Assembly (NCBI GenBank): GCA_019635485.1
Contig: JAHBZL010000015.1
Location: 1 to 64,000 of the forward strand
From: Piscinibacter sp.
GTDB taxonomy: Bacteria; Pseudomonadota; Gammaproteobacteria; Burkholderiales; Burkholderiaceae_C
DNA: 64,000 nt
Direction of reading: 5' to 3'
Below are positions 23,046 to 33,699 of the stretch, one piece after another; positions within the stretch are counted from its first letter, which is position 1; each line of letters opens with the position of its first letter. The notes under the pieces are model-generated. The model was not told the DNA's origin. It was given only the letters and a program-made list of their open reading frames with translations, and searched no databases. The translations under genes were made by a program, and so were the position numbers.

Positions 23046-24767
23046 TCAGGCCGGCCAGCGCCCTGCAAGCAGCCTGGCTTTCGCCTCCGACGGCGCGACG
23101 ACTCTGTCCGGCAGGTCGAGCACCAAATCCTCGACACCCGCATAGCAGTGCACCCCTAGCACCCACGGATAGCGCTTGAAGTGCTCGAACATCCCGTACT
23201 CCGCCTGCGCCACCTGAAGGATGGGCTGCACCGGCACCGAGGGCAGGGCCGGAACGATCACTGCAAGCTCCTGCGGGATGCTCTTCGCGTCGGTGATGTC
23301 CGCGATCACGAACCTCGAAAGATGAGCCAGCGTCGACACGGTCTCCGTGATGTCCCGCGAACTCGGCTTGTCGAAGTCGAACACCACGGGCAGGTAGTCA
23401 CGCCGCCCCAGCTCCGCACGGATCGCATCCAGCACGGCCTTCCGTTCGGGCGTGAACCGCCCGAGTATCAAGACGACCTTCGAAGTGATGGTGTCGATCG
23501 CTGAACGGATCTTCTGGTTGTTCAGCAGCAGATGCAAGAACTGGGCGATCTCGAGGTTGCCAACGGTGACGACCGGATGTCCTTGCTCGGAGATGACGAG
23601 ATCCGCCTGAACGGCGCCATCCAGGTTGGCGTCCCAGGTGGACGCGCCGAACACCCGGCATCCACGCAGATTCGCGTCCGCCAGGTTTGTCTTCACGAGC
23701 GACGCGTGGCTCAGATCGGCGCCCACGAGGGTCGTGCCGCTCAGGTCCGCTCCGTCGAGGTTGCAGCCGTGCAGCTTGGCTTCTCTGAGATTGGCATCCG
23801 AGACCTTGGCGCCGGCGAGGTTCGCTCGCTCGAGGCACGTCCGTGCCAGGTTGGTTTCCCGTACATCCGCTGCGCCCAGATCGGCTCGGCCAAGATCGGC
23901 GTCCATCAAGTTCGAGTCACTGAGCTTGGCGCCGCTCAGGTTCGCGCCACGGAGGTGAGCTCCGCTCAGGTTCGAGTCGCTGAGATCTGCGCCGCTCAGG
24001 TTCGAACCACTGAAGTCAGTGCCGCTCAGGTTCGAGCCCCTGAGGTTCGCGCCGCTCAGATTCGTGCCGCTGAGATCGGCGCCGCTCAGATTCGAGTCAC
24101 TGAAGTCGGCGTCGACCATCTTCACGCCGCGCAGGTTGGCACCGGGCGCGGCAAGTCCGGGCAACTTCATGCCGCTGAGGCTGTTGCCTGTGATGATCGA
24201 CACGTCTTCCATGGTCGAATCGGTCAGCTGGATGACGCTGCCTGCCGTGGGACCCATCAAGGCGCGGCGGAATGTGCAACGCGCGATGCTGCCCCCGCCG
24301 AAGTAGGTGCCGACGAGGCTGGCACCGGAGAAGTCGGAGTCCGCGATGTCGGACCCGCGCAAATCGGCTCCCAGGAGGATGGCCGCCGTGAAGCTCACGG
24401 AGGACAAGTTCGCGTCGGTGAGGTCCGTCCACGACAAGTCGGCACGGACGAAATTGCACTGCAGCACGTTGGCGCCCTTGAGGACGGCTCCGGTCAGGTC
24501 AGCATCCTTGAAGCTGGTCCCCATCAGGTTGCTGCCGCGGAGGTTGGTCCGCAGGAGCCGCGCGCCGGCGAAGTCGGTGTCCTTGACGCCGGCACCTTCG
24601 AGATTCGCCCCGGTGAGAGTGGCGCGACTCAGGTTCATCCGGCCGAGGGCGAGCGAGCGCAGGTCCGCGTCTGCAAGATCCGGAACGACCGAAGGGTGCG
24701 CGGCGCGCCAGGCGTTCCAGGCTTCGGCGCCTCGCGCAAGAAGTTCGACGTGCTCCTGAACCGCCAT
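23046..24767 (-). CDS. Pentapeptide-repeat protein with C-terminal TIR-like domain
   Basis: A 573-aa protein. Residues about 30-385 are A(D/N)LxX pentapeptide repeats that would fold into a long four-sided beta helix (for example SGADLSGTNLSGANLRG). Residues about 395-560 form a separate alpha/beta domain: VVLILGRFTPERKAVLDAI, LPVVFDFDKPSSRDITETV, SRFVIADITDAKSIPQEL, VPVQPILQ. The strand-helix order and the small-x-EL motif after a buried strand are TIR/SEFIR-like. An NADase or signalling role, for instance in phage defence, is inference only. Base composition is visibly less G+C-rich than its neighbours. ATG 24767 is preferred over GTG 24788 because AGGA lies upstream of it. Confidence 0.82.
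   Translation of the reverse strand: MAVQEHVELLARGAEAWNAWRAAHPSVVPDLADADLRSLALGRMNLSRATLTGANLEGAGVKDTDFAGARLLRTNLRGSNLMGTSFKDADLTGAVLKGANVLQCNFVRADLSWTDLTDANLSSVSFTAAILLGADLRGSDIADSDFSGASLVGTYFGGGSIARCTFRRALMGPTAGSVIQLTDSTMEDVSIITGNSLSGMKLPGLAAPGANLRGVKMVDADFSDSNLSGADLSGTNLSGANLRGSNLSGTDFSGSNLSGADLSDSNLSGAHLRGANLSGAKLSDSNLMDADLGRADLGAADVRETNLARTCLERANLAGAKVSDANLREAKLHGCNLDGADLSGTTLVGADLSHASLVKTNLADANLRGCRVFGASTWDANLDGAVQADLVISEQGHPVVTVGNLEIAQFLHLLLNNQKIRSAIDTITSKVVLILGRFTPERKAVLDAIRAELGRRDYLPVVFDFDKPSSRDITETVSTLAHLSRFVIADITDAKSIPQELAVIVPALPSVPVQPILQVAQAEYGMFEHFKRYPWVLGVHCYAGVEDLVLDLPDRVVAPSEAKARLLAGRWPA
23931..24110. repeat. Six-unit 30-bp tandem repeat inside the pentapeptide gene
   Basis: The 10-mer GCCGCTCAGG or a one-base variant recurs at exactly 30-bp steps, at 23931, 23961, 23991, 24021, 24051 and 24081. 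Each unit encodes two pentapeptides. The nucleotide-level identity is much higher here than in the rest of the gene, suggesting recent expansion by slippage or unequal recombination. Confidence 0.85.
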
Positions 24768-24837
24768 TCGCCGTGGTCCTACGGTCACTTGGGAAAGGTC
24801 GCCTTCGCCGGAGCCGCCTGGGCGACACCGCCGAAGA

Positions 24838-25902
24838 TCATGCCTTGGGTGTGGCCCGATGAGTTTCGATGCGTGACATCACGGGTCGCATTGCCAGGGC
24901 GGCCCGGATGGTGAACGGACCCGATAGGAATGGGTCCGACAGCAGCGGCGATGCGGGCATCATCGTGAGCCGCGCTCCTGCCGCGCCAGGGTCAGGAGCG
25001 CATCCAGCGCCCCCTCGCTCAGCCCCTTCAAGGTCCCGAAGTTCGCTTTCGACACGGGGCTGCTCGAAGCTGCGCAGCAGCATGGCACGCTGGTGGCGAG
25101 CCTCGGCCTCGGCGGCCTGCTCGGGAGTCAGCGGCAGGGCCGGCGCGCTCGCGGGTTCTTGTTCGTGTGCACGGGCAAGGTTCCGCTCCGGCAGAGGCTT
25201 GTGCGGGCGCCGGGGCGCACCCGAACCCGTATCGCCGGGCCGGCCGGGGCCTCGTTGCACGCCAGGCGGGGGCGGTCGGGAGCGACGTGGCGCTTGGCCG
25301 GGGCGAGATGGCTGCGCAGAGCGCTCCGGGCGATCGGAGGTACCGGGCTGCACCGAGCGCGCGTCACGAGTGACAGGCCGCTCGCCGGTCGCTCGCGAAG
25401 CGGACCGCGACTCCCGGGTGTCATGACGCGCAGCCCGGGCCGCCTCGCGCCCCGCGAGTTTCTTTGCTTCGACGAAGGCGCGGGGCCGCTCGAGTTCCAG
25501 GCCTGCAGCTTCGCGGTGCTCGGTGGCAATTTCGCCGACCGGCTGGCCGTCGAGGTCGATGCGTGTCGCGCCCTCGGCCACCAGGGCCCGCAGGCAGGCG
25601 GTCGCGGTGGTGTGGCGCTGCAGGAAGACCGAGAGTGCCTTCCTGGTGAAGACTCCCGGCGCGCGTTGATGAATGTCGACCTGGATGCGAAGCTTGATCG
25701 GCTCGATCACACCCGCACCGAACAGTGCCGGGAAGTGCTCGGCCAGCAGGCGCGCAGTGTCGGCCACGCAGGGTTCCGGCCGCGGCGCCGGTGCGACAAC
25801 AGCTGCAGCCGGGGCAGCTGGCGCCGCCTCGGTCGCCGTGCTGGGCGTCGCATGGTGCGCCGGTCCTGGAGCCGTCTCGGGATTCTCAGGGGTGTCGGGC
25901 AT
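24838..25902 (-). CDS. ProQ/FinO-domain RNA-binding protein with long disordered tails
   Basis: A 354-aa protein. The ProQ/FinO RNA chaperone domain is at about residues 46-145 (LLAEHFPALFGAGVIEPIKLRI, FTRKALSVFLQRHTTATACLRAL). An Ala/Pro-rich head precedes it and a long Arg/Ser/Pro/Gly-rich linker (about 150-250) follows. Residues about 275-315 (TPEQAAEAEARHQRAMLLRSFE) are a helical segment seen in betaproteobacterial ProQ relatives. Such proteins bind structured sRNAs and mRNA 3' ends. ATG 25902 (MPDTPENPE) is preferred over an upstream in-frame start. The pentapeptide gene follows 70 bp downstream on the same strand. Confidence 0.88.
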   Translation of the reverse strand: MPDTPENPETAPGPAHHATPSTATEAAPAAPAAAVVAPAPRPEPCVADTARLLAEHFPALFGAGVIEPIKLRIQVDIHQRAPGVFTRKALSVFLQRHTTATACLRALVAEGATRIDLDGQPVGEIATEHREAAGLELERPRAFVEAKKLAGREAARAARHDTRESRSASRATGERPVTRDARSVQPGTSDRPERSAQPSRPGQAPRRSRPPPPGVQRGPGRPGDTGSGAPRRPHKPLPERNLARAHEQEPASAPALPLTPEQAAEAEARHQRAMLLRSFEQPRVESELRDLEGAERGGAGCAPDPGAAGARLTMMPASPLLSDPFLSGPFTIRAALAMRPVMSRIETHRATPKA

Positions 25903-26060
25903 CGGAACGAAGCAGGTCGGTCGCCGGGGCAGTGTTGCCGGCCACGTATTCTCGGCCCTTGGCCCTGATCCTTGCACGCACTGCCGAATCCGCCTGCCGG
26001 CCGTCAGTTCGCACAGCGTTTCGAAGGATTGTCGTGGAGCGATTGGCGGCCACCAAAGCG

Positions 26061-26095: not shown

Positions 26096-26171
26096 TGGTG
26101 CCGGTGAAGAGAGTCGAACTCCCGACCTTCGCATTACGAATGCGCTGCTCTACCAACTGAGCTACACCGGC
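26096..26171 (-). tRNA. tRNA-Thr (anticodon CGT), CCA encoded
   Basis: Folds as a standard 76-nt cloverleaf. Acceptor arm GCCGGTG pairs with CACCGGC; the D arm is GCTC-AGTTGGTA-GAGC; the anticodon stem GCGCA/TGCGA-type arm encloses TTCGTAA with anticodon CGT at 26138-26136; the T arm contains GTTCGACTC. The discriminator A and a genomically encoded CCA end at 26096. It reads the ACG codon. No integrase or duplicated 3' end was found beside it. Confidence 0.95.
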
Positions 26172-26288: not shown

Positions 26289-27293
26289 TCAGCGCCACCA
26301 GAGGATCGCCCCCAGCACCAGCGCCGCCATCCACACGGTCTCGACCAGGATCAGCACGATGGGCCGCCAGCCCGCCTGGGTCAGCTGCATGAAGCTCGTC
26401 TTCATGCCGAGCGCGGCGATCGCCAGCACCAGGCAGGCGCGCGAGGTCCAGCCCATCGCCTGCTGCAGCGCGGCGGGCAGGGCGCCCGCCGAGTTGACGG
26501 CCACCAGCACCGCGAACAGCCACAGGAACCAGGGCACCAGCGGCTGGCGCGCGGCGTGTACCGGCTCGCCGCGCTCGCGCTCGGCGCGGAAGGCCAGGCT
26601 GACGCCGAGCACCACCGCGGCCAGCAGCGCGACGCGGAACAGCTTCACGATGGTGGCGATGTCGCCGGTCTGCGTGCCCAGCGTGTAGCCGGCGCCGACG
26701 ACCTGGGCCACGTCGTGGATCGTGCCGCCGATGAACAGGCCGGCCAGTTCGGGCGGCAGGGACAGCGCGCGCGCCAGCAGCGGGTACAGCACCATCGCCG
26801 CGGTGGACATCACGGTCACGCTGATCACGACCATCAGCGTGAAGCGGTCGCCGTGTCTCTCGCGCGGCAGCACGGCGGCGATGGCCAGCGCGGCCGACGC
26901 GCCGCAGATCGCCACCGCGCCGCCTGACAGCACGCCCTGTGCACGCGTCATGCCGAAGCGGCGGGCGAGCAGCGTGCCGCAGGCCAGCGTGCCGAGCACC
27001 GCCGCGATCACCACCGCGGCGGTGAAGCCGCCGAGCGCGACGATCTGCGCCGCCGTGATGCGCGCGCCGAGCAGGCCGACACCGAGGCGCAGCACCTGGC
27101 GTGCGCAGAACTCCACGCCGGCCTTGGTGCGCGCCTCCTGGCTGAGGTAGTGGAAGGCGATGCCGAAGAACAGCGCGTACAGCAGCTGCGGCCCGCCATG
27201 CAGCTGCGCGACGAAGGTCGCGGCCAGCGCGACGACCCCGGCAAGCGCGCTGCCCGGCAACAGCCCGGCGGCGTGGCGCAGCGCGCCGGTCAT
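26289..27293 (-). CDS. suyZ: YeiH/SuyZ-family exporter (probable sulfite exporter)
   Basis: A 334-aa integral membrane protein with about ten hydrophobic segments, of the YeiH/COG2855 family. Marks include LYALFFGIAFHYLS near residue 38, LGVGLLGARITAAQI near 70, SGGAVAICGASAALAIAAV near 123 and GGTIHDVAQVVGAG near 189. Members next to sulfo-lyase genes are named SuyZ or CuyZ and are thought to export sulfite. Its ATG overlaps the GntR stop by 4 bp, and suyAB lie divergently 0.9 kb away, so sulfite export fits. Direction and substrate are not shown by sequence alone. Confidence 0.82.
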   Translation of the reverse strand: MTGALRHAAGLLPGSALAGVVALAATFVAQLHGGPQLLYALFFGIAFHYLSQEARTKAGVEFCARQVLRLGVGLLGARITAAQIVALGGFTAAVVIAAVLGTLACGTLLARRFGMTRAQGVLSGGAVAICGASAALAIAAVLPRERHGDRFTLMVVISVTVMSTAAMVLYPLLARALSLPPELAGLFIGGTIHDVAQVVGAGYTLGTQTGDIATIVKLFRVALLAAVVLGVSLAFRAERERGEPVHAARQPLVPWFLWLFAVLVAVNSAGALPAALQQAMGWTSRACLVLAIAALGMKTSFMQLTQAGWRPIVLILVETVWMAALVLGAILWWR

Positions 27294-28057
27294 GCCGGCC
27301 GCGACAGCGTCTGCACGTACTCGTGCACCGCGGTGTGGATGGTCGAGACGCGGTACTCGACCGGCTTGTCGCCGAAGGTCAGCGCACTGCGCCGCACCTG
27401 CATCACCGGGGCGCCGGGCGCCATGCCGAGCACACGCGCCACGTGGCGCTCGGCCGCGACGGCGCGGGCCCGCTCCAGCGCGCGCACGACGGTGATGCCG
27501 AAGTCGGTCTGCCAGAGCCGGTAGATCGTGCCGGGCCGTTCGCGCAGGCGCTTCTCCGTCAGGCCCTTGAACAGCAGGGCCGGCAGCGTGATCTGGTCGT
27601 GCACGACCGGCCGGCCCTGCAGGTGCAGCCGGTTCTCGAAGCGGAACACCGGCTCGCCCGCCTTCAGCGCGAGCGCCGTGGCGGCCGCCTCGTCGTCGAG
27701 CCGCTCGCGCGCGAAGGACAGCAGCTCGACCAGCGGCACCTCGCGCAGGCCGTCGCTGCGCTCGACGTGGAAGAACTGGAACAGGAAGCGGTCCGCGTCG
27801 TGCGTCGCGACGAAGGTGCCGCGCCCCTGGCGGCGCACCAGGATGTGTTCGGCCACCAGCTCGTCGACCGCGTGCCGCAGCGTGCCGATCGCCACGCCGA
27901 ACGCGCCGGCTAGCGCCGGCTCGGCCGGCAGCGCCTCGCCGGGCGGCAGCTCGCCGCCCTCGATCGCCCGCAGCAGCGCACGCTTGACGACGCGGTACAG
28001 CGGCATGCCGGCGGCCTCGGGGGCGATGGGTCGGAACGGCGCGGCGCTGTCGGGCAT
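27290..28057 (-). CDS. GntR-family (HutC/UTRA type) regulator of the sulfolactate locus
   Basis: A 255-aa regulator with an N-terminal GntR winged helix (residues about 18-90: LYRVVKRALLRAIEGGELPPGEALPAE, FGVAIGTLRHAVDELVAEHILVRRQGRGTFV). A UTRA ligand-binding domain follows (about 100-245). It is divergent from suyA and cotranscribed with the exporter gene. A 16-bp inverted repeat in the shared promoter region is its probable site; sulfolactate or sulfopyruvate is a plausible effector. Confidence 0.9.
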   Translation of the reverse strand: MPDSAAPFRPIAPEAAGMPLYRVVKRALLRAIEGGELPPGEALPAEPALAGAFGVAIGTLRHAVDELVAEHILVRRQGRGTFVATHDADRFLFQFFHVERSDGLREVPLVELLSFARERLDDEAAATALALKAGEPVFRFENRLHLQGRPVVHDQITLPALLFKGLTEKRLRERPGTIYRLWQTDFGITVVRALERARAVAAERHVARVLGMAPGAPVMQVRRSALTFGDKPVEYRVSTIHTAVHEYVQTLSRPA

Positions 28058-28092
28058 GGCGGCGCATTCTGCCGTCCCGCGTCATTCATGCA

Positions 28093-28108
28093 AGTCATCT
28101 ATATGACT
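28093..28108. promoter_or_regulatory. Inverted repeat, probable GntR operator
   Basis: AGTCAT (28093-28098) and ATGACT (28103-28108) are perfect inverted arms around CTAT. The site lies in the 133-bp gap between the divergent GntR and suyA starts, directly upstream of the predicted suyA -35 box. Confidence 0.6.
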
Positions 28109-28111
28109 CGT

Positions 28112-28140
28112 TTGACAAGTGCCGGCGCGGCATCGAGCAT
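28112..28140 (+). promoter_or_regulatory. Putative suyA promoter
   Basis: A perfect TTGACA (28112-28117) is followed after 17 bases by GAGCAT (28135-28140), a weak -10 with three of six matches. Transcription would start near 28147, about 45 nt before the suyA ATG. The operator-like repeat abuts the -35 side. Confidence 0.45.
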
Positions 28141-28190
28141 CCCGTCCCACGCCGCCCGCCGGGGCCGGCGGAACAAGGAGCAGGACGAGC

Positions 28191-28472
28191 ATGAATCACT
28201 TCGTGTTGCACGACGCGCAGGACACCGTGGCGGTGGTCGTCGTCGAGGGCGTCAAGGCCGGCATGTCGCTGAACGGCTGGATCATGGACGAGGATCGGAT
28301 GATCACGATCGACGCGCGCCAGGACATCCCGATCGGCCACAAGGTCGCGCTGAAGGACATGGCCCCGGGCGACACCGTCATCAAGTACGGCATCGACATG
28401 GGCAAGGTCGTCGCGCCGATCAAGGTCGGCGAGCACGCGCACGTGCACAACATCAAGACCAAGCGGTGGTGA
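28191..28472 (+). CDS. suyA: (R)-sulfolactate sulfo-lyase, alpha subunit SuyA
   Basis: A 93-aa SAF-domain protein, the small subunit of the two-part UxaA-like lyase. It matches SuyA in size and features: [17 protein letters not shown] at the N terminus, then [16 protein letters not shown] and [23 protein letters not shown]. With SuyB it cleaves (R)-3-sulfolactate to pyruvate and sulfite using an iron site. AAGGAG is placed 10 nt before the ATG. The suyB gene follows after 31 bp. A sugar-acid dehydratase small subunit is the alternative, but the neighbouring genes argue for sulfolactate. Confidence 0.87.
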
Positions 28473-28503
28473 CACCCCCGGGCACCGGGATCAAAGGACT
28501 CGC

Positions 28504-29679
28504 ATGAGCATCATCTCGAAAGACACCACCTTCCTCGGCTACCGGCGCGAGAACGGCCGCGTCGGGGTACGCAATCACGTCGTCATCCTGCCGCTGGACG
28601 ACCTGTCGAACGCCGCCGCCGAAGCCGTGGCGCACAACATCAAGGGCGCGCTGGCGATCCCGCATCCGTACGGCCGCCTGCAGTTCGGCGCCGACCTGGA
28701 CCTGCACTTCCGCACGCTGATCGGCACCGGCTGCAATCCGAACGTGGCGGCGGTCGTCGTGATCGGCATCGAGGACGGCTGGACCCAGAAGGTGGTCGAC
28801 GGCATCGCGGCGACCGGCAAGCCGGTCACGGGCTTCGGCATCGAGGGCCATGGTGACCATGCCACGATCATGAAGGCCAGCAAGGCGGCGCGCGAGTACG
28901 TGCAGTGGGCCAGCGAGAAGCAGCGCGAGGCCTGCCCGATCTCCGAGCTCTGGGTCTCCACCAAGTGCGGCGAGAGCGACACCACCAGCGGCTGCGGCGC
29001 GAACCCGACGGTCGGCAACGCCTTCGACAAGCTGCATCCGCTGGGCAACTATCTGTGCTTCGGCGAGACCAGCGAGATCACCGGCGGCGAGCAGATCGTC
29101 GCGGCGCGCTGCGCGAGCGACGCGGTGCGCGAGCGCTTCATGTTCATGTTCAACCGCTACCAGGACATGATCAACCGCCACAAGACGACCGACCTCAGCG
29201 AGAGCCAGCCGACCAAGGGCAACATCGCCGGCGGCCTGACCACGATCGAGGAGAAGGCGCTCGGCAACATCCAGAAGATCGGCAAGAAGTGCACGGTCGA
29301 CGGCGTGATCGACAAGGCCGAGATGCCGACGCACCCGGGCCTGTGGTTCATGGACTCGTCGTCGGCGGCGGCGGAGATGGTCACGCTGTGCGCGGCCTCC
29401 GGCTACGCGGTGCACTTCTTCCCGACCGGGCAGGGCAACGTGATCGGCAACCCGATCCTGCCGGTCATCAAGATCTGCGCCAACCCGCGCACCGTGCGGC
29501 TGATGAGCGAGCACATCGACGTCGACAGCTCGGGCCTGCTGCAGCGCGAGATCACGCTCGACCAGGCCGGCGACCGGCTGCTCGAGTGCATGCTGCGCAC
29601 GGCCAACGGCCGCCTGACGGCCGCCGAGGCGCTGGGCCACCGCGAGTTCGTGCTGACGCGCCTGTACGAGAGCGCCTGA
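28504..29679 (+). CDS. suyB: (R)-sulfolactate sulfo-lyase, beta subunit SuyB
   Basis: A 391-aa large subunit of the UxaA/altronate-dehydratase superfamily. The sequence closely follows SuyB as I remember it from Paracoccus: [19 protein letters not shown] at the N terminus, [28 protein letters not shown] and [20 protein letters not shown]. The Cys residues in [12 protein letters not shown] are candidate metal ligands. It forms the catalytic sulfo-lyase with SuyA, releasing sulfite. It precedes slcC by 3 bp, showing a single transcript. Confidence 0.88.
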
Positions 29680-29682
29680 GCG

Positions 29683-30609
29683 ATGGCCCGCATCGTCGTC
29701 ACCGAGTTCATGGACGAGCCGGCGGTGGCCGCGCTGCGGGCCCGCCACGACGTGCTGTACGACGCGGCACTGGTGGACGACGCGCCGCGCCTGCTCGCCG
29801 AAGCGGCAGGCTGCGAGGCGCTGATCGTGCGCAACCGCACGCAGGTGCGCGGTGCGCTGCTGGAGGCGCTCGTGCGCTGCCGCGTGGTGGGCCGCCTCGG
29901 CGTGGGGCTGGACAACATCGACGTCGCCGGCTGCGCGGCGCACGGCCTGACGGTCATCCCGGCGACGGGCGCGAATGCGCGCTCGGTGGCCGAGTACGTG
30001 GTCGCCACCGCGCTGCTGCTGCTGCGCGGCGCCTACGCGTCGACGGCGGAGGTGGCCGCGGGCCGCTGGCCGCGTGCGGCGCTGTCCGATGGGCGGGAGA
30101 TCGGCGGCCGCACGCTCGGGCTGATCGGCTTCGGCGGCATCGGCCAGCTGACCGCGTCGCTGGCGCGCGGCCTGGGCATGCAGGTGGCCGCGTTCGACGC
30201 GATGATGGACGACGACCACCCCGCGTTCGCCGCGGCCGGCGTGCGCTGTGCCGGGCTGGAGGAGGTGATCACCACCAGCGACGTGGTCAGCCTGCATGTG
30301 CCGCTCGTCGAGTCGACGCGCGGCCTGTTCGACGCCGCGCGCATCGCGGCGATGAAGCCTGGGGCGATCCTGATCAACACGGCGCGCGGCGGCATCGTCG
30401 ACGAGCCGGCGCTCGCGGCCGCGCTGCGGGCCGGGCGGCTGGGCGGCGCGGCGATCGACGTGTTCGATGCCGAACCGCTGCCGCAGGCGGCGCACTTCGC
30501 GGGTTGCCCGAACCTGGTGCTGACGCCGCACATCGCGGGCCTGACCGCGGAGTCGAACCAGCGCGTCAGCGAGCTGATCGCAACCCGTGTGCTGGAGGCG
30601 CTGGCATGA
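29683..30609 (+). CDS. slcC: 2-hydroxyacid dehydrogenase, probable (S)-sulfolactate dehydrogenase SlcC
   Basis: A 308-aa NAD-dependent D-isomer-type 2-hydroxyacid dehydrogenase. The Rossmann motif is GFGGIGQLTASLARGLG near residue 148. The catalytic set is Arg (NTARGGIVDE), Glu (DAEPLP) and His (TPHIAGLT). In Chromohalobacter, SlcC of this family oxidises (S)-sulfolactate to sulfopyruvate so that ComC can make the (R)-form for SuyAB. Gene order suyAB-slcC-comC here supports the same role. Substrate specificity cannot be read from the sequence alone. Confidence 0.85.
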   Translation: MARIVVTEFMDEPAVAALRARHDVLYDAALVDDAPRLLAEAAGCEALIVRNRTQVRGALLEALVRCRVVGRLGVGLDNIDVAGCAAHGLTVIPATGANARSVAEYVVATALLLLRGAYASTAEVAAGRWPRAALSDGREIGGRTLGLIGFGGIGQLTASLARGLGMQVAAFDAMMDDDHPAFAAAGVRCAGLEEVITTSDVVSLHVPLVESTRGLFDAARIAAMKPGAILINTARGGIVDEPALAAALRAGRLGGAAIDVFDAEPLPQAAHFAGCPNLVLTPHIAGLTAESNQRVSELIATRVLEALA

Positions 30610-31628
30610 GGCTCTCGCTCGCGGACCTGCGGGCGGAGGTGGCCGCCGCGCTGGAGCGCGCCGGGGCCGGCACGGCGATGGCCGAGAGCACTGCGCGGGC
30701 GCTGGTGCTGGCCGAGGCGCAGGGCCTGGGCTCGCATGGCCTGAGCCGCGTCGCGCAATACACCACGCACCTGCGCAACGGCCGCGCGGACGGCCGGGCG
30801 CAGCCCGAGGTCGTGCGCCGCCGCGGCGGCGCGCTGCTGGTCGACGCGCACGCGGGCCTGGCCTTCCCGGCCTGCGAACTGGCGGTGCGCGAGGCGATCG
30901 CGCTGGCGCCGGCGCAGGGCATCGCGTTCGCCGGCGTCGCCGGCAGCCACCACGCGGGCGTGATCGTCGATCACCTGCGGCCGGCCGCGGCCGCGGGCCT
31001 CGTCGGGCTGGGTTTCGCGAACTCGCCGGCCGCGATGCCGGCCGCCGGCGGCCGGCATGCGATCTTCGGCACCGACCCCGTGGCCGCCGTGTTCCCGCGC
31101 CGCGTGAAGCCGGGCGCGCCCGAGGGCGCCGGCGATCCTTTGCTGATCGACCTGAGCCTGAGCGAGGTCGCGCGCGGCAAGCTGATGGTCGCGGCGAAGG
31201 AGGGCCGCGCCATCCCGGCCGGCTGGGCGCTGGACCGCGAGGGCCGGCCGACCACCGATCCGCAGGCCGGGCTGGAGGGCTCGATGCTGCCGGTCGGCGC
31301 GGCCACCTCGAGCAAGGGCGCGATGCTGGCGCTGGTGGTCGAGCTGCTGGTCAGCGCGCTGATCGGCGCGAACTTCGGCTTCGAGGCCTCCAGCTTCTTC
31401 GTCGACGCGGGCAACCGCCCGGGCATCGGGCAGGCCTTCGTGCTGATCGATCCGGACGCGCTGGCCGGCCGCGAGCGCTACCTCGACCGCATCGAGGTGC
31501 TGTTGGCCGAGATGCTGAGCGACGAGGGGGTGCGCCTGCCCGGCGCGCGGCGCGAGGCGTTGCGCCGCCGTGCCGAGGCCGAGGGCCTGGAGGTGCCCGA
31601 CGCGCTGCTGGCCGCATGGCGCGCCTGA
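30606..31628 (+). CDS. comC: Malate/L-lactate dehydrogenase family, probable (R)-sulfolactate dehydrogenase ComC
   Basis: A 340-aa NAD(P)-dependent oxidoreductase of the type-2 malate/L-lactate (Ldh2) family. Recognisable marks are GLGSHGLSRVAQY near residue 41, GVAGSHHAGVIVDHL near 105 (catalytic His), FANSPAAMPAAGG, and LSLSEVARGKLMVAAKEG. Family members include sulfolactate dehydrogenases (ComC/SlcD type) that reduce sulfopyruvate to (R)-sulfolactate. The ATG overlaps the slcC stop by 4 bp. Together with SlcC it would give a two-step inversion of the sulfolactate stereocentre. Confidence 0.85.
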   Translation: MRLSLADLRAEVAAALERAGAGTAMAESTARALVLAEAQGLGSHGLSRVAQYTTHLRNGRADGRAQPEVVRRRGGALLVDAHAGLAFPACELAVREAIALAPAQGIAFAGVAGSHHAGVIVDHLRPAAAAGLVGLGFANSPAAMPAAGGRHAIFGTDPVAAVFPRRVKPGAPEGAGDPLLIDLSLSEVARGKLMVAAKEGRAIPAGWALDREGRPTTDPQAGLEGSMLPVGAATSSKGAMLALVVELLVSALIGANFGFEASSFFVDAGNRPGIGQAFVLIDPDALAGRERYLDRIEVLLAEMLSDEGVRLPGARREALRRRAEAEGLEVPDALLAAWRA

Positions 31629-31717
31629 AGGAGAACCGCGCGGGGACCGCATAACGATATCGGTTGCGCGGCGCCGCCCCCGCCGGCAGCATGCGCAGCC
31701 TCTTGGAGACGAGACCC

Positions 31718-32683
31718 ATGCAACGACGCGAGCTGCTGCAGGCGCTGGCCCTGCTGTTCCCCACCGCCGCCTGGGCCCAGGCCGATTACCCGAAGCCGGG
31801 CACGCCGCTGCGCTACATCGTGCCGTTCGCGCCGGGCGGGCTGACCGACGTGATGGCGCGCCTGGTCGGCGAACGGCTGGGCACGCGCTGGAACGCCAAC
31901 GTGGTGATCGAGAACAAGCCGGGCGGCGGGGCGCAGATCGGCGCCGACCTGGTGGCCAAGGCGGCGGGGGACGGCTACACGCTGCTCGCGATCACGCTGA
32001 CCCACGCCGCTAACGTGACGCTCTACAAGGGCAAGGCGAGCTTCGACTTCCGGCGCGACCTGCGGCCGGTCGCGCTGCTGGCCGGCTCGCCGATGCTGAT
32101 CGTCGTGCCCGCGGCCAGCCCGATCAGGGACGTCAAGGATCTGGTCGCGCAGTCCCACGCACGGGTGCTGAACGTCGGCTCGTCGGGCAACGGCACGCCG
32201 CCGCACCTGACGCAGGCACTGTTCGCCGACACGCAGAAGGTGCAGATGCAGCACGTGCCCTACAAGGGCGGCGCGCCGAGCATGACCGACCTGATCGGCG
32301 GCCAGCTCGACGTGGTCTTCTCCAACTTCCCGGAGAGCATCGCGCACGTGAAGTCCGGCAAGCTGCGTGCGCTGGCCGTGACCGGGCCGGCGCGCCACCC
32401 GCAGCTGCCGGACGTGCCGACCGCCGCCGAGGCGGGCCTGCCGCAACTGCAGGTGGAGAACTGGACGGCCATCATGGCGCCGGCCTCGACGCCCGATCCG
32501 ATCGTCGCCAAGCTCGGCGCCGAGGCGGTGGCGATCATGAACCTGCCGGACGTGGCCGAGCGGGTGCGCGGCATGGGCTTCCGGGTCGACGCGCGCGGCC
32601 CGGCCGAGTTCGCGGGCTTCCTGAGCGGCGAGATCGAGCGCTGGGCCGGCATCATCGCGGCCGCGCGCATCCAGCTCGAGTAG
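31718..32683 (+). CDS. Tripartite tricarboxylate transporter binding protein (TctC/Bug family)
   Basis: A 321-aa periplasmic binding protein with a signal peptide (MQRRELLQALALLFPTAAWAQA). The Bug fold is shown by LRYIVPFAPGGLTDVMARLV, VVIENKPGGGAQIGADLVA and VPYKGGAPSMTDLIGGQLD. Such proteins deliver carboxylates to TctAB permeases; in Chromohalobacter a TTT system (slcHFG) is the sulfolactate transporter. Here tctA and tctB are not adjacent, so it must borrow a permease encoded elsewhere. GGAG precedes ATG 31718; an earlier in-frame ATG at 31691 is possible. It ends 5 bp from the convergent fbp stop. Confidence 0.9.
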   Translation: MQRRELLQALALLFPTAAWAQADYPKPGTPLRYIVPFAPGGLTDVMARLVGERLGTRWNANVVIENKPGGGAQIGADLVAKAAGDGYTLLAITLTHAANVTLYKGKASFDFRRDLRPVALLAGSPMLIVVPAASPIRDVKDLVAQSHARVLNVGSSGNGTPPHLTQALFADTQKVQMQHVPYKGGAPSMTDLIGGQLDVVFSNFPESIAHVKSGKLRALAVTGPARHPQLPDVPTAAEAGLPQLQVENWTAIMAPASTPDPIVAKLGAEAVAIMNLPDVAERVRGMGFRVDARGPAEFAGFLSGEIERWAGIIAAARIQLE

Positions 32684-32688
32684 CCCCC

Positions 32689-33699
32689 TCAGCCGGCCTC
32701 GCGGTGGTACGCGGTGACGCGTTCCACCTCGTTCCGCGAGCCCAGCATCACGCTGACGCGCTGGTGCAGCGTGGTCGGCACGATGTCGAGGATGCGCTGC
32801 CGGCCGTCGGTGGCCATGCCGCCGGCCTGCTCGACGATGAAGCTCATCGGGTTGGCCTCGTACAGCAGGCGCAGCTTGCCGGGCTTGTCGGGCTCGCGCT
32901 TGTCCCAGGGGTACATGAAGATACCGCCGCGCGTCAGGATGCGGTGCACGTCGGCCACCATGCTGGCGACCCAGCGCATGTTGAAGTCCTTGCCGCGCGG
33001 GCCTTCCTGGCCGGCCAGGCACTCGTCGACGTAGCGGCGCATCGGCGCGGCCCAGTGGCGCATGTTCGACATGTTGATCGCGAACTCGCGCGTGTCCGCC
33101 GGGACCTGCACGCGGTCGGCGGTGAGCACCCAGGAACCCATCTCGCGGTCCAGCGTGAACACCGCGACGCCTTCGCCGACCGTCAGCACCAGCATGCTCT
33201 GCGGGCCGAAGATGCAGTAGCCGGCGGCCGCCTGCGCGCGCCCGGCCTGCAGGAAGTCCTGCTCGCTGATGCCGCGGTGGTGGCCCACCTTGCGCAGCAC
33301 CGAGAAGATCGTCCCGATGCTGACGTTCACGTCGATGTTGGACGAGCCGTCCAGCGGATCGAACAGCAGCAGGTACTCGCCCTGCGGATAGCGGTTCGGC
33401 ACCAGGTGGATCGAGTCCATCTCCTCGCTGGCCATCGCCGCGAGGTGGCCGCCCCATTCGTTGGCCTCGATCAGCACCTCGTTGGCGATGATGTCGAGCT
33501 TCTTCTGCACCTCGCCCTGGATGTTCTCGGTGCCGGCGCTGCCCAGCACCTCGCCGAGCGCGCCCTTGTTGACGGAGATCGCGATGGTCTTGCAGGCCCG
33601 CGCGACGACCTCGATCAGCAGGCGCAGCTCGGCCGGGATGTGGCCGTGCTCGCGCTGCTGCTCGACGAGGTACTGGGTGAGGCTGATGCGTCTGGCCAT
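32689..33699 (-). CDS. fbp: Fructose-1,6-bisphosphatase class I
   Basis: A 336-aa cytosolic enzyme hydrolysing fructose 1,6-bisphosphate in gluconeogenesis or the Calvin cycle. The metal- and substrate-site motif [15 protein letters not shown] is near residue 115, and [17 protein letters not shown] with [17 protein letters not shown] form the C-terminal signature. Length is normal for the class I family. It lies 11 bp after pepN on the same strand; the pair is a frequent neighbour set in betaproteobacteria. Confidence 0.97.

Follow-up and report, generated by a model that had tools for sequence, protein, structure and literature searches.

A putative 3-sulfolactate degradation cluster in Piscinibacter sp. 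and the predicted operator of its GntR/UTRA regulator

Our analysis of a 64,000-nucleotide stretch of Piscinibacter DNA (the window; contig C7 of a 5.0-Mb draft genome that is 84% complete) identifies the locus at 26289-32683 as very likely a cluster for the catabolism of 3-sulfolactate, of the known SuyAB/SlcC/ComC type, and as very probably functional. Seven genes were confirmed, in which a YeiH-type exporter and a GntR/UTRA regulator are divergent from suyA-suyB-slcC-comC-tctC, and this arrangement recurs in related genomes and is therefore not a matter of chance. The cluster is ordinary for its relatives; what is new here is the predicted operator together with a survey of related loci. 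The locus comprises:

26289..27293, minus strand: putative YeiH/COG2855-type exporter (SuyZ-like), PF03601
27290..28057, minus strand: GntR/UTRA regulator, PF00392 and PF07702
28091..28110, unstranded: predicted operator CAAGTCATCTATATGACTCG, a conserved palindrome between gntR and suyA
28191..28472, plus strand: suyA, predicted small subunit of (R)-sulfolactate sulfo-lyase, 93 aa, adjoining suyB and 74% identical to the Cupriavidus pinatubonensis gene before suyB
28504..29679, plus strand: suyB, predicted catalytic subunit of (R)-sulfolactate sulfo-lyase, 391 aa, 85% identical to C. pinatubonensis, Pfam GD_AH_second and GD_AH_C
29683..30609, plus strand: slcC-like gene, SerA-type D-2-hydroxyacid dehydrogenase, Pfam 2-Hacid_dh and 2-Hacid_dh_C
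30606..31628, plus strand: comC-like gene, Ldh_2 family, PF02615 at 296.5 bits
31718..32683, plus strand: TctC-type substrate-binding protein, PF03401 at 200.7 bits, 55% identical to its counterpart downstream of suyAB in C. pinatubonensis

The exporter and regulator genes overlap by 4 bp, suyB and slcC are 3 bp apart, and slcC and comC overlap by 4 bp; the divergent units and the spacing inside suyB-slcC-comC given in a preliminary description of this DNA agree with these coordinates. For the TctC-type gene the best start is 31718, with in-frame alternatives upstream at 31664 (TTG) and 31691. A tRNA-Thr (CGT) at 26096-26171 directly adjoins the cluster. Such a tRNA-Thr also lies beside the cluster in P. 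defluvii SH-1 and in G005, and was not found near suyB in the available stretches of G001, G002 and G006, so that the place of the cluster seems to differ within the genus; a reading of the cluster as an island at this tRNA was set aside. At the other end, a gene read as fructose-bisphosphatase (32689-33699, minus strand) adjoins the cluster; its best match in P. defluvii and in G005 shares the contig with suyB, at a distance of over 20 kb. Before the tRNA, 23046-24788 encodes a long pentapeptide-repeat protein with 12 matched PF00805 stretches, and 24838-25977 a protein that combines a ProQ/FinO domain with a long tail rich in Arg, Pro and Ala.

The lyase is most likely of the SuyAB type, which would convert (R)-sulfolactate to pyruvate and sulfite, and identity, synteny and tree agree with this earlier assignment. 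As expected of SuyAB, a separate small subunit adjoins a UxaA-family large subunit; the Pfam search gave no match for SuyA, and its PDB match is an altronate hydrolase (3k3s, E 6.9e-13). The best named plasmid relative of SuyB is the copy near hpsN/hpsO in C. pinatubonensis HN-2, with 85% identity. In the plasmid collection, 13 records hold SuyB at ≥60%, the weakest at 62% and the next at 41% (among the matches listed, best 40 of 316). Likewise, 24 of 100 related genomes (our own included) carry a SuyB-type gene at ≥79%, and the next full-length match stands at 39%; this gap disregards a fragment of 54 residues from a genome that had been counted already. In a tree of 18 rows, 14 SuyB-type proteins, chosen by likeness to that of the window, are split with 100/100 support from E. 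coli UxaA, E. coli GarD and two paralogues of our own genome. To our knowledge, none of the SuyB rows is a protein assayed in print. Recombinant SuyAB of Desulfovibrio DF1 is reported as active in the available part of PMC6278857.

The sole NCBIfam match of SuyB is galactarate dehydratase, at 146.8 bits far under the cut-off of 730.85, and could be taken to mean that the UxaA-family pair is an altronate/galactarate dehydratase and that sugar acids or further hydroxyacids are the substrates of both dehydrogenases. We regard this as highly improbable, as the lyase stands apart from UxaA, GarD and the own-genome paralogues instead of clustering with the galactarate/altronate dehydratases, the SuyB-type matches in the related genomes go down to 79% identity and the next ones stand at 39%, and HpsN homologues occur in 10 of the best 80 of 590 loci. 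For the lyase itself, tree and identity gap led us to reject a sugar-acid dehydratase.

The survey behind this last count considered as named loci the best 80 of 590 confirmed ones and therefore leans towards close relatives. Gene order was judged among 17 probed proteins, between which further genes may intervene, and 15 of the 80 stretches (best 80 of 590) stop no more than 2.5 kb from suyB, which makes the counts of downstream genes lower bounds. Within these best 80 of 590 loci, SlcC (≥50%) is present in at least 38, ComC (≥45%) in at least 50 and both in at least 35, with the order suyB-slcC-comC in at least 25; SuyZ (≥35%) was found in 9 and HpsN (≥50%) in 10. A GntR match above 38% lies anywhere in the stretch in 65 of the best 80 of 590. 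The GntR regulator and the separated binding protein had been thought to make this a distinct layout, a view that has to be given up, since GntR and suyA diverge in 57 and a TctC-type gene (≥45%) is present in at least 16 of the best 80 of 590 loci. The full seven-gene order is found in at least three of them (best 80 of 590), namely P. defluvii and two Polaromonas, one of which is Polaromonas sp. JS666. Within the genus, six of eight genomes carry SuyB, and five of these six hold all seven genes in order, our own and P. defluvii SH-1 (G003 and L032, which are one locus) included; in the remaining genome, G006, SuyZ had no match.

For the inversion of (S)-sulfolactate, the SlcC-like protein is probably an (S)-sulfolactate dehydrogenase and the ComC-like protein probably an (R)-sulfolactate dehydrogenase. 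In the SlcC-like protein the catalytic Arg, Glu and His lie in the motifs TARGG, DAEP and TPH, and the protein has the SerA-like substrate R of VRNRT; all 15 of 15 SlcC-like rows read VRN(R/L)T, versus LRSRT in E. coli SerA. According to the accessible text of PMC6303947, after which the 2HADH catalytic residues were also partly assigned, the Arg-Ser motif of SERA binds phosphate. This position reads Arg-Asn in 15 of 15 SlcC-like rows, which may be a sulfonate-reading change. Among 18 other loci with a match, 17 have an SlcC-like gene 53-82% identical to that of the window, and Rhodococcus koreensis has one at 41%; nine other matches in our own genome reach 29-41%. The ComC-like protein scored 165.8 bits against the L-sulfolactate dehydrogenase equivalog NF040650, and because this is below the cut-off of 500 we named the gene ComC-like. 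In trees made without sequences of Chromohalobacter salexigens, the SlcC rows group together in 1% of bootstrap trees, with long branches, and the ComC rows form one group in 8%. The phylogenetic comparison proposed beforehand thus resolved SuyB (100/100) and did not resolve the SlcC and ComC groups; since both trees are weak at depth, the function of the two enzymes rests on context and printed work. The claim that SlcC and ComC together invert (S)- to (R)-sulfolactate accordingly stands in part: it is backed by context, with both genes in at least 35 of the best 80 of 590 loci, and by the available part of PMC12421959, and not by a resolved phylogeny.

We consider it quite unlikely that the two enzymes form no racemase, with one of them supplying sulfopyruvate for another purpose or ComC using some other 2-oxoacid. 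The solved relatives of ComC would fit such a role, as 1wtj and 3uoe outscore the methanogen L-sulfolactate dehydrogenase 2x06 (third-best, 123.5 bits) and the best-scoring one is listed as ureidoglycolate dehydrogenase / delta1-piperideine-2-carboxylate reductase; suyB-slcC-comC are nevertheless tightly coupled here and keep this order in at least 25 of the best 80 of 590 loci. Likewise, 45 of the best 80 of 590 stretches, 15 of the 80 ending within 2.5 kb of suyB, do not hold both genes (15 ComC only, 3 SlcC only, 27 neither), against which stands the pair of C. salexigens, a two-enzyme racemase credited to Denger and Cook 2010 in the available parts of PMC12421959 and PMC6018796. We therefore keep the racemase as the preferred role of SlcC and ComC.

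In this context, the cluster can be set beside several named systems. Like that of C. salexigens, it has SlcC, ComC and SuyAB together with an uptake component of the TTT type, as described by citing papers; a complete tripartite system, SlcHFG, is reported there (PMC5812351, as far as available), whereas here the binding protein stands alone, a comparison made by description and not by sequence. In the accessible portion of PMC12421959, cluster 2 of Paracoccus wurundjeri Merri unites SlcC, ComC and SuyAB homologues as the gene set does here, and these proteins are detected by proteomics and produced on sulfofucose; it differs in being tied to sulfofucose genes and an ABC transporter. The run hpsN-hpsO-MFS-dehydrogenase-suyA-suyB-tctC of C. 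pinatubonensis HN-2 resembles the window in suyA (74%), suyB (85%) and the TctC-type gene that follows (55%), and has the core palindrome 78 bp before suyA, but carries hpsN and hpsO, with slcC, comC and GntR unmatched within the 15-kb stretch. The locus of P. defluvii SH-1 shows the seven genes in identical order with SuyB at 97%, and differs, as far as compared, in sequence divergence.

C. pinatubonensis JMP134 degrades DHPS through SuyAB, according to the part of PMC6278857 at hand. The main job of the present cluster could similarly be to finish DHPS, cysteate or sulfosugar breakdown, with sulfolactate only as an internal intermediate. We consider this unlikely: the P. wurundjeri gene set indeed serves sulfofucose breakdown (PMC12421959, available part) and HpsN (≥50%) lies within the stretch in 10 of the best 80 of 590 loci, but HpsN was not found in our own genome (84% complete assembly), where the single match reaches 37%. 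Because this match lies between frames read by eye as hisG and hisC, it was taken for hisD, and a DHPS route in this genome was rejected.

The YeiH/COG2855-type protein is probably a sulfite or sulfate exporter. It matches PF03601 at 213 bits and reaches 132.2 bits against TIGR00698, below the curated cut-off of 232.6; Paracoccus, Sinorhizobium and Polaromonas have homologues in their suyAB loci. For uptake, the seven genes include the binding protein and no permease gene, and of five TctA genes elsewhere in the genome none could be linked to this binding protein. Uptake genes differ between loci, with TctC, TctC with TctA, a dicarboxylate-type symporter or MFS. When a single molybdopterin query was used to look for a dedicated sulfite dehydrogenase, it returned a SoxC-like protein and one weak match. 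The SoxC-like molybdopterin oxidoreductase, a name given by reading only, is encoded on contig C2 of our own genome beside a cytochrome-type frame with two CxxCH motifs, and the two might together oxidise sulfite or thiosulfate.

Besides the enzymes, our data allow a prediction for the regulation of the cluster. The GntR/UTRA regulator missed all NCBIfam equivalog cut-offs. A regulator gene suyR is named for the C. salexigens system, without its family, in the available part of PMC6018796, and a binding site of a sulfolactate regulator was not met in print in our limited literature search, which is weak evidence of absence. The gntR-suyA gap contains, at 28091-28110 of the window, a palindrome with the consensus CAAGTCAT-N4-ATGACTTG, lengthened by flanking positions to CAWNCAAGTCATMTAKATGACTTGNWTG. 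We surveyed 90 such gaps, reduced to 72 by removal of 13 exact and 5 near duplicates; as the loci are related, the counts are not independent. GTCAT-N4-ATGAC is present in 22 of the 72 gaps versus none in each of 50 dinucleotide shuffles, and its 22 copies across 867 kb of loci are all these gap copies. TCAT-N4-ATGA occurs in 37 of 72 gaps, where shuffles gave a mean of 0.32 and at most 2, and has 48 copies over the entire 867 kb; TCAW-N4-WTGA is found in 51 of 72, with 117 copies in the whole loci, a figure without shuffle control. Sorted by identity of GntR to that of the window, TCAT-N4-ATGA is found in 16 of 20 gaps (≥65%), 9 of 10 (55-65%), 9 of 21 (48-55%), 2 of 16 (40-48%) and 1 of 5 (<40%). 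The palindrome fades as GntR diverges, a behaviour fitting a cognate site.

Of 29 suyA loci lacking a divergent adjacent GntR, a set that leaves out E. coli and a fragment of our own genome (two rows), 13 have a core-form site 51-133 bp before suyA. These are 9 of the 10 loci with GntR elsewhere in the stretch, Methylobacterium oryzae being the exception, and 4 of the 19 without a GntR match, including C. pinatubonensis; three of the 19 start inside suyA and therefore leave no room for such a site. Among the eight genomes of the genus, the 20-bp palindrome (≤2 mismatches) is present in the six with suyB and absent from the two without, one of which is only 77% complete. Each suyB-bearing genome has one palindrome in the divergent promoter; in P. 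defluvii SH-1 an additional, weaker match (2 mismatches) lies on a different contig. With 3 mismatches allowed, our own genome contains the operator site and three others versus two for a reversed control pattern, so that only a close match to the palindrome is informative. A sigma-70 promoter scan of 27950-28300 around the palindrome found none, a point against our reading of the cluster. The palindrome is a probable operator, and the GntR/UTRA protein probably the repressor of both divergent units.

From gene identities by homology, synteny and the conserved palindrome, we infer substrates, stereochemistry, transport direction, repression and inducer as follows. The TctC-type protein would capture sulfolactate, which a permease encoded elsewhere would probably import. 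SuyAB would cleave (R)-sulfolactate directly to pyruvate and sulfite, while SlcC would oxidise (S)-sulfolactate to sulfopyruvate and ComC would reduce this to (R)-sulfolactate, to be cleaved next. The sulfite would leave via the YeiH-type exporter or be oxidised, and the cell would grow on racemic sulfolactate. GntR/UTRA would probably repress both divergent units from the palindrome, and a pathway metabolite would relieve this repression.

Taking the parts together, it appears likely that many Burkholderiales share a sulfolactate regulon defined by the GntR/UTRA regulator next to suyAB, with a dedicated operator, CAWNCAAGTCAT-N4-ATGACTTGNWTG, so that one repressor at one site switches both degradation and sulfite export. 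The SlcC-like proteins may, in addition, differ from SerA by the Arg-Asn change. With the predicted operator, further sulfolactate users can be searched for and the regulator can be put directly to the test. Sulfoquinovose breakdown yields sulfolactate as one of its products (PMC13372026, as far as available), and organisms that complete the degradation bring its carbon and sulfur back into the cycle. The locus points to an ability of Piscinibacter-type bacteria to use both sulfolactate enantiomers.
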